A stretch of 64,000 nt of DNA, taken from NCBI RefSeq assembly GCF_000024425.1, contig NC_013946.1, forward strand, positions 2,666,001-2,730,000, given 5' to 3'. Positions 35,806 through 40,675 of this stretch are shown in pieces; positions within the stretch are counted from its first letter, which is position 1; each line of letters starts with the position of its first letter. Position numbers and translations under genes: made by a program. Origin of the DNA: Meiothermus ruber DSM 1279. Lineage in GTDB: Bacteria; Deinococcota; Deinococci; Deinococcales; Thermaceae. A model generated the notes under the pieces. The model was not told where the DNA came from. It made no database searches and saw only the letters and a list, made by a program, of their open reading frames with translations.

Positions 35806-35871
35806 AACTCAACCCGCTTTCGGTTCTAGCTGGCCCACGTTACATAAGGCCATAAACAGCATTCTTGATGT

Positions 35872-35877
35872 TACCAT
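35872..35877 (+). promoter_or_regulatory. leaderless-type -10 box TACCAT
   Basis: TACCAT, 7 nt, then the ATG at 35885, supporting that start over the in-frame ATG at 35876, which overlaps the box. Confidence 0.4.
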
Positions 35878-35884
35878 GCGCGGT

Positions 35885-36547
35885 ATGAAGCCTAAAGCCT
35901 GCCTGGTGGTTGGAATGGGGCGGGGGCTTGGGCTCTCGGTGGCCCGGCGCTTCGGCCAGGAAGGGTACCGGCTGGGCCTGATCGCCCGCAGTGCGGCCAG
36001 CCTGGAAAACTACGCAGGGGCGCTGGAACTCGATGGCTGCGCGGTTCAAACCTTTCCCGCCGATGTAGCCCGCACCCCCCAGCTCATCTCCGCCATCCGC
36101 GAGGCCGAAAAAGCGCTCGGCTCCATCGAGGTATTGGTGTACAACGCCTACGCCGCCCAGGGCCGCCGGGCCTCGGAGCTGAGCCGGGAGGCCCTCGAGC
36201 AAACCCTCCAGGTCAATCTTTACGGGGCTTTGCTGGCAGCCCAGCTGGTCATCCCCGGCATGCTCTCGCGCCGCCAGGGCACCCTGCTCTTTACCGGGGA
36301 TGGCCTGGCCCTGAACCCCCAGCCCGACCAGGCCGCGCTCTCCATTGGCAAAGCCGCCCTGCGGGCCCTGGTGGGCGCCCTGAGCAAAGAGCTCTATCAC
36401 GAAGGCATCCATGCCGCTACCGTGACCATCGCCGGCCCGATCCGGCGCAACACCCCCTTCGACCCTGACCTGATCGCCGAAAAGTTCTGGGAGCTGCACA
36501 CCCAGCCTCCGGGCCGGTGGAAGACCGAGGTGGTCTACCAAGGATGA
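35885..36547 (+). CDS. short-chain dehydrogenase/reductase
   Basis: A 220-residue SDR-family oxidoreductase. The cofactor motif is VVGMGRGLGLSVARRF (GxxxGxG type), followed by VLVYNAYA in place of the usual NNAG. The usual catalytic YxxxK is altered: the expected region reads QAALSIGKAALRALV, where Ser or Ala replaces Tyr while the Lys is kept. It may therefore be a non-classical or inactive SDR. The start is ATG at 35885 (or 35876). Confidence 0.82.
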   Translation: MKPKACLVVGMGRGLGLSVARRFGQEGYRLGLIARSAASLENYAGALELDGCAVQTFPADVARTPQLISAIREAEKALGSIEVLVYNAYAAQGRRASELSREALEQTLQVNLYGALLAAQLVIPGMLSRRQGTLLFTGDGLALNPQPDQAALSIGKAALRALVGALSKELYHEGIHAATVTIAGPIRRNTPFDPDLIAEKFWELHTQPPGRWKTEVVYQG

Positions 36548-36656
36548 GGCCCACTTCATCAAAGCAAACTTCTTGTAACACCTCTCCGTAAAGCTCGCTC
36601 GGCTCTGGATTTAAACAGGGGATACCGTCCTAGAGAGCGTGTTTGTATTACCAGAC

Positions 36657-36893
36657 TTATTCCTCTGCAGTGGGCTTATCTGGACGTGCACCACGGAGCA
36701 AAGCCAACACCGCGAGTGCAGCGTTCAGACTTATAGCGAACAATACTATGGCCCATACTGCAACGGCTAAGCCTGAATTCCAGTTAATAACCATATCGCC
36801 GTTCACCGCAACGATGACCAGTGCAAAAAGTGATAACAGGATCCTGGTTAGATTTTTTTTTAAATGACGGTTCGATTTACTTTTCCCCAGCAT
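36657..36893 (-). CDS. small membrane protein, 78 residues
   Basis: Not recognised. A charged N-terminus (KSKSNRHLKKNLTR) is followed by two membrane helices (ILLSLFALVIVAVNGDMVIN and AVWAIVLFAISLNAALAVLALL). The ATG at 36893 follows GGAGGG and lies inside the end of the upstream gene (17-bp overlap), so the two are probably translated together. Confidence 0.6.
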   Translation of the reverse strand: MLGKSKSNRHLKKNLTRILLSLFALVIVAVNGDMVINWNSGLAVAVWAIVLFAISLNAALAVLALLRGARPDKPTAEE

Positions 36894-37236
36894 ATCTACC
36901 CTCCGCCGTGAAGCCTTCCTGTCCGTTTATTGAATTGCTGCTCTTGCTCGAACGACGCAAGAACTGAAGAAAAATCCCACCCAGCCACCCTGACAGAAAC
37001 AAAATCATTGCGTAAAGTGGCAGAACCAGCAAAACCCCAGGTAGGCTAGCAACTCCCAGGCTATTGTAAAGTGCAGGGAACTGCACCACAACAGCCGCTG
37101 TTGCCCAGCCAACTGACCAAGCAACCACCCAGAGGCTCATCTCAATGAGCGTATGGTATTTCGTCCATGCTACTATCCCGCTTAACACCGCCCCCACCAG
37201 TCCAACCGAAAAAATGGGTGGCCCACCCGACCCCAT
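36877..37236 (-). CDS. membrane protein, 119 residues
   Basis: Not recognised. Three hydrophobic helices (FSVGLVGAVLSGIVAW, EMSLWVVAWSVGWATAAVVV, LPGVLLVLPLYAMILFLSGWLGGIF) and a Ser-rich polar tail. It is coupled to the 78-residue membrane protein. Its start lies only about 30 bp from the left end of the IS982-type element, so its promoter may have been changed by the insertion. Confidence 0.6.
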   Translation of the reverse strand: MGSGGPPIFSVGLVGAVLSGIVAWTKYHTLIEMSLWVVAWSVGWATAAVVVQFPALYNSLGVASLPGVLLVLPLYAMILFLSGWLGGIFLQFLRRSSKSSNSINGQEGFTAEGRYAGEK

Positions 37237-37268
37237 GGCTGTTCCCAGCGCGCTAAGTGAGCTTACAA

Positions 37269-38160
37269 TAACTCAAGTTGCCACCTATCCTGACTACGCA
37301 GAAAATAAAGGCCACTATGAACTGGACTGTTCTAGTGGCCTTCTGCATTATAGACGATCTGCTCAAGACCCTCGGACACAAGGACGACCCCCAGAGCAAG
37401 ACCCCCGCCAGCGTCGTCCTCACCCTCTGGATTCTGGCCGCCCTGGCTTTCGCTGGAAAGCACAAGCACGCCCTGATCTATGCCAAAGAGCAGGGTCTTT
37501 TCAGCTACATCCCCTCCCCCAGCCGCTTCAGCCGACGGCTGCACAGCCTGGCCCACTGGATACCGCTGCTATTGTCCCTGAGCAAGACTTTATGGGAGCA
37601 GCTAAGCTCAGTGGAGCACTACATCCTCGACACCTTACCCCTGCCGGTCTGTGAAAACATCCGCGCGCCCCGTTGCCGCCTGGCCCCAGCCCGCGTATAC
37701 CGGGGCTACATTCCCAGCAAACGCAGCTACTTCCACGGACTCAAGCTCCACCTGGTCTGCACGGATAACCAGTGGATCAGCGAAGTTCTCCTCACCCCTG
37801 GCGCCACCGCGGACGTGGAGGGGTTGTATCGGCTGCCGCTGGACTTGCCGCAGGGAAGCAAGCTGTACGTGGATCGGGGGTACACCGACTATCAGGCCGA
37901 AGATGACCTGGCCATGGCTGAGGGCATCCGGCTGCGCGCCATCCGCAAGGGGAACTCCAAGCGCTACCACCCACCCGGTCAGTTCATAGTCACCGTGGGC
38001 AGGAAGATTATCGAGTCGGTGGGTGCTGCCCTGACGGAACTATTCCCCAAGCGCATACATGCCACGACCCTCCAGGGCTTTGTGCTCAAGGTGTGGGGCT
38101 TCATCTTTGCCCACAACTTCAGGCGGCTGGCTAGTATTTTGTAGGTGGCAACTTGGGTTA
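37269..38160 (+). mobile_element. IS982-family insertion sequence, 892 bp
   Basis: The terminal inverted repeats are 37269-37287 and 38142-38160; 18 of 19 bases match (left TAACTCAAGTTGCCACCTA). One transposase gene fills the element. No exact target-site duplication was found: the flanks GCTTACAA and GCTATAAC agree at only 4 of 8 positions. No CTCGAG site occurs inside, unlike the surrounding genome. Confidence 0.88.
37317..38144 (+). CDS. IS982-family transposase
   Basis: A 275-residue DDE transposase. Catalytic residues are likely the Asp in HYILDTLPLPVCEN, the Asp in KLYVDRGYTDY and the Glu in KIIESVGAALTELFP. The phrase SYFHGLKLHLVCTDN is typical of IS982 enzymes. The ATG at 37317 (MNWTVLVAFCIIDDLLK) is preferred; an upstream TTG at 37278 lies inside the terminal repeat. 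The frame is intact, so the element could be active. Confidence 0.88.
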   Translation: MNWTVLVAFCIIDDLLKTLGHKDDPQSKTPASVVLTLWILAALAFAGKHKHALIYAKEQGLFSYIPSPSRFSRRLHSLAHWIPLLLSLSKTLWEQLSSVEHYILDTLPLPVCENIRAPRCRLAPARVYRGYIPSKRSYFHGLKLHLVCTDNQWISEVLLTPGATADVEGLYRLPLDLPQGSKLYVDRGYTDYQAEDDLAMAEGIRLRAIRKGNSKRYHPPGQFIVTVGRKIIESVGAALTELFPKRIHATTLQGFVLKVWGFIFAHNFRRLASIL

Positions 38161-38805
38161 GCTATAACCAACAGCAAGGCCCGGGAAATTCTGGTTTGGC
38201 TGGCACTCAACGGCAAAGGAAGCCGCGGGCAGATCGTGGACGCACTATGGGATGGCTCCGACGACTATCGTCACATTGACTATTTCAAGATCTCGGTTCG
38301 TCGGCTTCGGTCGGCGCTTGCCAGTCATCCGCTGGTGGACTTTGATCCAGTACCCTTCGAGGGCGGCCTTTACAGGTTTGGCGATCGCCTCGAGGTGCAG
38401 GTGGACGTCGTGGAGTTGGAGGGTCTTTTGGCGCTTGGCAGTGCCGAAGACCTGGAAATGGCCCTGAAAGTTTACCGAGGAACCTTTTTGCCGGAAGTCG
38501 AGGCGGGCTGGGTGGAGCCCATCCGAACCCGAGCCCTCGATGCAGCCCTGGCTGCAGCTGCCTCGTTGGGTGAAATGCTGGCGGAAAATAACCCCACCCA
38601 GGCTGCTTGGGCTTTTCAAAAGCTGGTTGAGCTTGATCCCCTCGCAGAGGCCTCGTACATCAAACTGCTGAGGGTGTTGCGTCGGCTTGGTGACCATCCT
38701 CGGGCAAAACTGGTTTTCCGCTCGTTGGTGCGTATGTTGGCCAATGAGTACGGGGCCGACCCCGATCCAGCGGTAGTTCGGGAGTTTGGCGACCTGCTGG
38801 AATAG
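38161..38805 (+). pseudogene. 5'-truncated BTAD-domain transcriptional regulator
   Basis: Directly after the right IS end an open frame continues without a start codon: AITNSKAREILVWLALNGKG, then RGQIVDALWDGSDDYRHIDYFKISVRRLRSAL, a winged-helix DNA-binding domain of the OmpR/SARP type, then a bacterial transcriptional activator (BTAD) helical domain to the stop (KVYRGTFLPEVEAGWVEPIRTR, FQKLVELDPLAEASYIKLLRVLRRLGDHPRA). Full-length proteins carry a large N-terminal part (ATPase or TPR repeats). That part is absent here and is not found on the other side of the IS, so flanking DNA was lost. Translation could only come from a fusion with the transposase frame or an internal start. Confidence 0.8.
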
Positions 38806-38822
38806 CGAACCCAAACCACCCC

Positions 38823-38993
38823 CTAAAAGTACTTCCGAAGAACTCTCAGCCACGGCAACCGCACAGCCAGGGCGCGTTCATCCTTACTGCGCTGATTGTT
38901 CAACCGGGTTTGGCGCTCTATGGTGGCTTCCCGGTGTAACCGGGCCAGCTTTGTTTCGGTATACTCCCTGAGGAACATTTCGTTAATCTGCAT
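38823..38993 (-). CDS. small basic protein, 56 residues
   Basis: Not recognised. The sequence MQINEMFLREYTETKLARLH begins a charged, helical peptide rich in Arg, Glu and Lys. The ATG at 38993 is 6 nt after GAGGAG and overlaps the stop of the 98-residue gene upstream, which suggests coupled translation. No homologue comes to mind. Confidence 0.5.
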   Translation of the reverse strand: MQINEMFLREYTETKLARLHREATIERQTRLNNQRSKDERALAVRLPWLRVLRKYF

Positions 38994-39279
38994 AACCATC
39001 TCCTCTGTCCAACTCGAGCCAGTTGACAATGGCCTCTAACGAGGCCGAAACCGTCGCGGAGGCTGGGGGCAGAAGGTTGCTGGCTAGCTGGCGAATTTTG
39101 GCCAGGACGTCCGAAATTTCCTGGCCGGAGCTGAGTTTCTCTTCTGCCACAACAATCAGCGTCTCCCCAAGTAAAACCTGCTGCTGTGTCCAGGTACGGG
39201 TAAGCGGGGCCTCGCGGAACCTGGCTCGAATGGTGTCTAAGGCCAAAAGCACGGCATCATGTCGGCGAGGATTTTTCAC
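38983..39279 (-). CDS. hypothetical protein, 98 residues
   Basis: Not recognised. A soluble, mostly helical protein (LLALDTIRARFREAPLTRTW, ISDVLAKIRQLASNLL). The start is GTG at 39279 with only a weak ribosome binding site. Codon use fits the genome and the frame overlaps the next small gene, both of which support it being real. Confidence 0.5.
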   Translation of the reverse strand: MKNPRRHDAVLLALDTIRARFREAPLTRTWTQQQVLLGETLIVVAEEKLSSGQEISDVLAKIRQLASNLLPPASATVSASLEAIVNWLELDRGDGYAD

Positions 39280-39305
39280 GCAGCCCCCGTATGCACAACA
39301 TGGGC

Positions 39306-39512
39306 TTATACCAATCGGGATGAACCGCTTTCCTGAAGAACTGGGTATGCTTGAAGCCAGGGTTCCGGAGACGGCATTGGTTCAGGGATTGGAAGCGGAA
39401 TCGGTATGGGAATTGGACGTGGCCAGGGCAGCGGCATGGGCTCAAATCGGCGGCTCTCCACGCCAACGAGCTGGTAAGGCGAAGAAGCGCTATGAGTCCC
39501 ATCAGACTCCAC
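39306..39512 (-). CDS. possible short proline-rich protein
   Basis: A 68-codon frame with a striking middle section of Pro alternating with Ile, Met and Leu (PRPIPIPIPLPIPEPMPSP). The start is uncertain: GTG at 39512, or an ATG in another frame at 39502 preceded by GGAG (which would give MGLIALLRLTSSLAW). A frameshift joining the two frames is possible. The regular Pro spacing suggests coding but does not prove it. Confidence 0.3.
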   Translation of the reverse strand: MESDGTHSASSPYQLVGVESRRFEPMPLPWPRPIPIPIPLPIPEPMPSPEPWLQAYPVLQESGSSRLV

Positions 39513-39518
39513 TAACCC

Positions 39519-39608
39519 CTAACCAACCAGCACGACCGAGCCCAGCACAGCGCTGACCAAGGCCGAGATTAGAACTCCTACCTGAAAACCCAAACGGCGT
39601 TTTTGCAT
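39519..39608 (-). CDS. 29-residue hydrophobic peptide
   Basis: ATG at 39608 with a near-perfect AAGGAGGT eight bases upstream. The product is a basic start (MQKRRLGF) followed by one hydrophobic helix (VGVLISALVSAVLGSVVLVG). It would sit in the membrane or act as an exported peptide. It lies near the truncated BTAD regulator and two other small genes. Confidence 0.5.
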   Translation of the reverse strand: MQKRRLGFQVGVLISALVSAVLGSVVLVG

Positions 39609-39792
39609 AGCTACCTCCTTGTGTCACTTTGCGGCCCGCGCTTCTTTGGTGGCGAGCCAAGGGCAGGGTACACAGTGCGCGATAACAACACGGGAACAAC
39701 CGCAAACCGCCAAGGTGTCTCCGAGGTGTCTCTGAATTGAGTTTTGGGTTGCTCCTTTAGCCTGCACGCCCGGTCAGGGGCTTGGCAGGGCC

Positions 39793-39798
39793 TATACT
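39793..39798 (+). promoter_or_regulatory. leaderless-type -10 box TATACT before the channel gene
   Basis: TATACT, 7 nt, then GTG at 39806. Transcription from here would exclude the upstream TTG at 39782 as the start. Confidence 0.55.
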
Positions 39799-39805
39799 TG
39801 GGCCT

Positions 39806-40675
39806 GTGAGTGCCTCTACACCCAATCCCCTGGGTCGTCTGGTGGCGTCGGCCGCCTTCAACCGTTTTGTTACCGCTGTTATCGTGTTAGCCGCCGTACT
39901 GGTGGGCCTCGAGACCTACCCACCTCTCATGGCACGCTACGGCCCCGCCCTCCACCTGCTCAACAACCTGGTGCTGGCTATCTTTGCCCTCGAGGTGCTG
40001 CTGCGCATGGGGGCGCTGTGGCCCCGGCCGCTGCGCTATTTCCTCGACGGCTGGAACGTCTTCGATTTTTTGATCGTGGTGGGGAGCCTGCTGCCGGGGC
40101 TGGGGGCCTACGCGGTGGCGGCCCGCCTGCTGCGGCTCCTGCGGGTGTTGCGCCTCGTCCGCACCCTCCCCGACCTGCAAATTATTTTGGGCGCGCTATT
40201 GCGCAGCATTCCTTCCATCGGCTACGTCCTGCTGCTGATGCTGCTTTTGCTCTACGTCTACGCGGTGGCCGGGGTGTTTTTGTTCGGGACCAACGACCCC
40301 TTCCACTTCGGTAACCTGCACACCGCGCTGCTCACCCTCTTCAGCATCCTGACCTTAGAAGGCTGGGTGGATGTGCTGCGCATCCAGTACTTTGGCTGCG
40401 AGCGCTTCGAGCTGCCCGACCCGGCCCTGTGTGTCCAGCCCCAGGCCCAGCCGCTGGTCGCAGTGGTGTACATGGTCTCGTTTGTCCTGCTGGGCACCCT
40501 GGTGTTTTTGAACCTGCTGGTGGGCATCATCGTTAATAGCATGGACGAGATGCGCAAGAGCCTGCAGGAGCGCAAGGCGCCATCCTCCGACCTCGAGGCC
40601 CGGCTGGCAGAGGTACAGGCCAAACTCCGGGAGGCCCAGGCCCTGCTAAATAACCTCGCCGGGCACCGCGGGTGA
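39806..40675 (+). CDS. voltage-gated calcium-type channel (CavMr-like)
   Basis: A 289-residue six-helix, single-repeat voltage-gated channel of the bacterial NaChBac/NavAb superfamily. S1-S3 are followed by an S4 sensor with five arginines spaced every third residue (RLLRLLRVLRLVR). S5 is YVLLLMLLLLYVYAVAGVFLF, and the pore helix ends in the filter TLEGWVD (bases 40352-40372). The extracellular loop to S6 has two cysteines (FGCERFELPDPALCV) that could form a disulfide. S6 (FVLLGTLVFLNLLVGIIVNSMDEM) is followed by a coiled-coil tail for tetramer assembly. Sodium channels of this group read TLESW; the Gly form with Asp matches, as I recall, the calcium-selective CavMr of Meiothermus ruber. The GTG start is set by the TATACT box. 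Confidence 0.88.
   Translation: MSASTPNPLGRLVASAAFNRFVTAVIVLAAVLVGLETYPPLMARYGPALHLLNNLVLAIFALEVLLRMGALWPRPLRYFLDGWNVFDFLIVVGSLLPGLGAYAVAARLLRLLRVLRLVRTLPDLQIILGALLRSIPSIGYVLLLMLLLLYVYAVAGVFLFGTNDPFHFGNLHTALLTLFSILTLEGWVDVLRIQYFGCERFELPDPALCVQPQAQPLVAVVYMVSFVLLGTLVFLNLLVGIIVNSMDEMRKSLQERKAPSSDLEARLAEVQAKLREAQALLNNLAGHRG

Follow-up and report, generated by a model that had tools for sequence, protein, structure and literature searches.

CavMr of Meiothermus ruber and the distribution of its TLEGWVD-type selectivity filter among one-domain voltage-gated channels

The open reading frame at 39806-40675 of the window (the whole stretch analysed here, 64,000 nucleotides of Meiothermus ruber DSM 1279, contig NC_013946.1, positions 2,666,001 to 2,730,000) is almost certainly the gene of CavMr, the voltage-gated Ca2+ channel of this species, as judged by species, residue numbering, and single-copy status. 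This identification is a rediscovery—the channel was described and measured in 2020—and the underlying observation is correct and already known. CavMr already serves as the reference among native calcium channels of prokaryotes, so nothing new is learned here about the gene. The accompanying survey of relatives names uncharacterised channels in other phyla that carry Gly4 and Val/Ile6, two filter positions shown to be important by mutagenesis, and it uncouples calcium selectivity from the loop cysteines. The features discussed below are as follows.

37278-38144: IS-type transposase gene, in the 36600-39750 segment
38059-38805: ORF for a BTAD-domain regulator, overlapping the transposase gene
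39793..39798, + strand: TATACT, probable -10 promoter element by sequence, 7 nt before the GTG start
39806..40675, + strand: gene identified as CavMr, 289 aa, GTG start; one-domain voltage-gated calcium channel subunit with an Ion_trans match
40103..40165, + strand: S4 voltage sensor helix, residues 100-120, a helix in the AlphaFold2 model; Arg 107, 110, 113, 116, and 119
40352..40372, + strand: selectivity filter TLEGWVD, residues 183-189, numbered identically in PMC7041947
40397..40399, + strand: codon of Cys198, first loop cysteine (FGCERF), paired with Cys209 in long-loop relatives
40430..40432, + strand: codon of Cys209, second loop cysteine (ALCV), paired with Cys198 in long-loop relatives
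40523..40525, + strand: Gly240 in S6, the residue mutated to Ala in published CavMr recordings (PMC7041947)
40586..40666, + strand: C-terminal cytoplasmic helix, residues 261-287, a helix in the AlphaFold2 model

Identity and fold of the channel

ORF 39806-40675 contains one Ion_trans domain (Pfam E 9.4e-47) and is the single Ion_trans match in a search of the whole M. ruber genome (3,097,457 bp for the chromosome of type strain 21T; PMC3035268); no NCBIfam model was found for the CavMr protein. The original prediction had placed a TLEGWVD filter of a voltage-gated channel at 40352-40372, and this is confirmed, with ACCTTAGAAGGCTGGGTGGAT on the + strand encoding TLEGWVD in frame inside the Ion_trans ORF and giving the single match to the pattern T.EGW.D in all six frames of the window. 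The motif is not a chance occurrence, since TLEGWV(D/E) is kept in 15/15 of the Meiothermus genomes with the gene (18 searched).

Shimomura et al. (2020, eLife e52828, PMC7041947) obtained their CavMr clone from M. ruber DSM 1279 (accession ZP_04038264) and gave its filter as 183-TLEGWVD-189. Counting from the GTG at 39806, TLEGWVD occupies residues 183-189 and residue 240 is Gly, both as in the CavMr numbering. What had been predicted as a resemblance to the CavMr filter thus turns out to be CavMr itself: species, filter sequence, numbering, Gly240, and single copy all agree, and no difference was found at these features. Sister species encode proteins that are 91-97% identical and have the same filter, which would suit a closely related channel, paralogous or orthologous to CavMr but distinct from the published one; however, the agreement of T183, D189, and G240 with the CavMr numbering and the single Ion_trans match of the genome make this very improbable.

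The protein shows the hallmarks of one-domain voltage-gated cation channels (BacNav/AnclNav), with an Ion_trans domain, six transmembrane helices, S4 arginines, and a P1-filter-P2 arrangement. R107, R110, and R113 of S4 do not vary across an alignment of 44 sequences. The AlphaFold2 model (mean pLDDT 85) comprises S1-S6, P1 (171-182), P2 (187-196), and the C-terminal helix (261-287), and in a fold search of the PDB it matches the structures of NavMs, NavAb, and CavAb. By analogy with other BacNav channels, the C-terminal helix probably assembles into a coiled coil of four helices. The bacterial channels that we recognised among the best 60 sequence and 50 fold matches in the PDB were canonical BacNavs, with no structure of CavMr or another AnclNav among them.

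Selectivity filter and glycine filters among relatives

In insect cells, CavMr produces a voltage-activated, Ca2+-preferring current with a V1/2 of -51.7 mV, and its PCa/PNa in the G240A background is 218 +/- 38 as recorded in heterologous cells rather than M. ruber (PMC7041947). This published electrophysiology settles as calcium-selective a channel that, under the terms of the original prediction, might have proved sodium-selective or non-functional. Filter mutants in the same G240A background gave PCa/PNa values of 11.9 (G4S), 7.73 (G4D), 40.1 (V6T), and 144 (D7M), from which the authors concluded that selectivity is set by Gly4 and Val6 while Asp7 is dispensable (PMC7041947). The emphasis that the prediction had placed on the final Asp is thus not borne out, since the D7M channel stays selective. 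As shown for NavAb S178G, which has a TLEGW filter and a PCa/PNa still <0.01, TLEGW alone is insufficient (PMC12919392).

Based on the structure of Cav1.1, the authors proposed that Gly4 widens the filter entrance (PMC7041947). In our reading, four copies of CavMr form the voltage-gated channel, as a tetramer by homology to BacNavs, and the arginine-bearing S4 senses voltage and causes the pore to open. The TLEGWVD filter passes Ca2+ and keeps out Na+ and K+, with Gly4 and Val6 as its determinants and Gly4 probably broadening the filter mouth for the entry of hydrated Ca2+; voltage gating and selectivity are both established by the published heterologous expression. A putative Cys198-Cys209 disulfide probably stabilises the loop that follows the filter.

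Known channels differ from CavMr in instructive ways. NavPp of Plesiocystis pacifica, which lies on the same branch of one-domain channels in the published tree, has the filter TLEDWTD and is more permeable to Na+ than to Ca2+ (PCa/PNa 0.31), in contrast to the Ca2+-passing TLEGWVD of CavMr (PMC7041947). The engineered calcium-selective NavAb variant CavAb shares high Ca2+ selectivity and the fold with CavMr but depends on many aspartates, whereas CavMr depends on Gly4 and Val6 (PMC7041947). Human Cav3.2 has TLEGWVD as the corresponding filter segment of its first repeat, identical to that of CavMr, but animal Cav3 channels have four repeats in one chain and CavMr has one. Canonical BacNavs (NavAb, NavMs, and NaChBac) have the fold, S4 arginines, and filter position in common with CavMr; unlike CavMr, they have Na+-passing TLESW filters and a short cysteine-free loop (relatives L119, L120, and L162-L166).

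Our survey of relatives covered 79 genome loci plus genomes of several phyla (n=142 after dropping near-identical rows), and the filter and loop columns were removed before the tree was computed. On this tree, whose deep branches are weakly supported, CavMr branches apart from the TLESW channels, which lie elsewhere, and it has a Gly at position 4, in keeping with the acidic residue or glycine found there in the AnclNav group and distinct from the TLESW of canonical BacNavs. A search of 111 genomes in the phylum found the gene in 15 of 18 Meiothermus genomes and one relative in another genus of the Thermaceae (L096), with no channel relative in the other genomes searched. This L096 channel (L096:1495-2340) is 57% identical, carries the filter TLEDWTD together with the cysteine pair, and stands on the tree as the nearest Thermaceae relative and sister to the Meiothermus clade, in which all copies have TLEGWV(D/E). 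With its NavPp-type filter, it forms with the Meiothermus channels a natural pair for studying the selectivity switch.

At least four lineages outside Meiothermus carry TLEGW(V/I)(D/E) filters, namely Ignavibacteria (TLEGWID in L102), Flavobacteriales (L034 and L035/L104, with TLEGWVD in L104), one genome of Oligoflexia (L080/L161), and one of myxobacteria (L061), the last with a TLEGW-type filter but without the long loop. These lineages sit in separate places on the tree, with weak deep support, and the best tree has 15 changes between Gly and another residue at filter position 4. Judged by their filter sequences, we regard these channels as candidate further prokaryotic calcium channels with presumed calcium selectivity. 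We see an even chance that calcium-type TLEGW(V/I)(D/E) filters arose several times in AnclNav, namely in Meiothermus, Ignavibacteria, Flavobacteriales, the Oligoflexia lineage, and the myxobacterial lineage; in that case, CavMr would be one example of a recurrent kind of native calcium channel in bacteria rather than a unique one. As late as 2026, CavMr is described as the sole prokaryotic Cav identified (PMC12919392), and the papers found in our literature search describe none of the non-Meiothermus Gly4 channels, the AnclNav list in the source data of Shimomura et al. aside. A subgroup with Gly at filter position 2 (TGEDWTD, TGDAWTD, and TGEGWSE; L146, L150, L151, L153, L154, L156, and L157) was seen in a phylum-wide search around a myxobacterial genome.

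Loop cysteines and calcium selectivity

Cys198 and Cys209 are the sole cysteines of the CavMr protein, and a 2023 review already states that the CavMr L6 loop has a disulfide and that NavAb and NaChBac are without long loops (PMC10120453). Among 107 long-loop relatives, the cysteine pair is complete in 76 and missing altogether in 31, and no channel has a single one of the two, a pattern of joint presence or absence in 107/107 that fits a disulfide. On well-supported branches, co-gain and co-loss could be followed in three independent contrasts; these nearly always point the same way, but their number is too small for significance in a sign test. That the two residues are instead free thiols or bind metal seems unlikely to us. 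Our literature search found no experiment on the CavMr loop cysteines and the M. ruber genome gave no match to a VKOR homologue, which leaves room for such a role, but the strict co-occurrence, the disulfide stated for CavMr in the review, and a DsbB-family protein present in the M. ruber genome all speak for a bridge.

The same review suggests that the loop disulfide itself may determine calcium selectivity in one-domain channels, in line with its presence in CavMr and the lack of long loops in NavAb and NaChBac (PMC10120453). We consider this quite improbable: the cysteine pair is no rarer with Asp4 (51 long-loop relatives with and 17 without) than with Gly4 (21 with and 12 without), nine independent contrasts on the tree reveal no association between Gly4 and the pair, and filter swaps alone shifted selectivity between CavMr and NavPp (PMC7041947). 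Since the pair occurs with Asp4 as well as Gly4 filters, the loop cysteines are no marker of calcium selectivity. The two cysteines for which a disulfide had been suggested are real and their co-occurrence is consistent with that bond, but as a calcium signature they fail, with the pair also found beside TLEDWTD.

Promoter and genomic neighbourhood

The TATACT element (region 39790-39805) is conserved, as a GCCTATACT box 7-9 nt upstream of the GTG, in four other Meiothermus loci, one of them from M. taiwanensis (L002), which suggests a leaderless CavMr transcript. In sister species, the channel gene has a der-GTPase block on one side and an acyltransferase-prfA-Nudix-pheT block on the other. 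Most of these conserved neighbours (der GTPase, acyltransferase, prfA, Nudix, and pheT) have housekeeping roles, and they offer no hint of channel function. M. ruber has a segment (36600-39750) between CavMr and the der/EngA side that is absent in sister species and contains the transposase gene with the overlapping BTAD-domain ORF. At 35840-36562 on the - strand, a 240-aa protein with no Pfam match is encoded whose gene adjoins the channel gene in most sister species; with 53-93% identity across these species, it is diverging faster than its neighbours.
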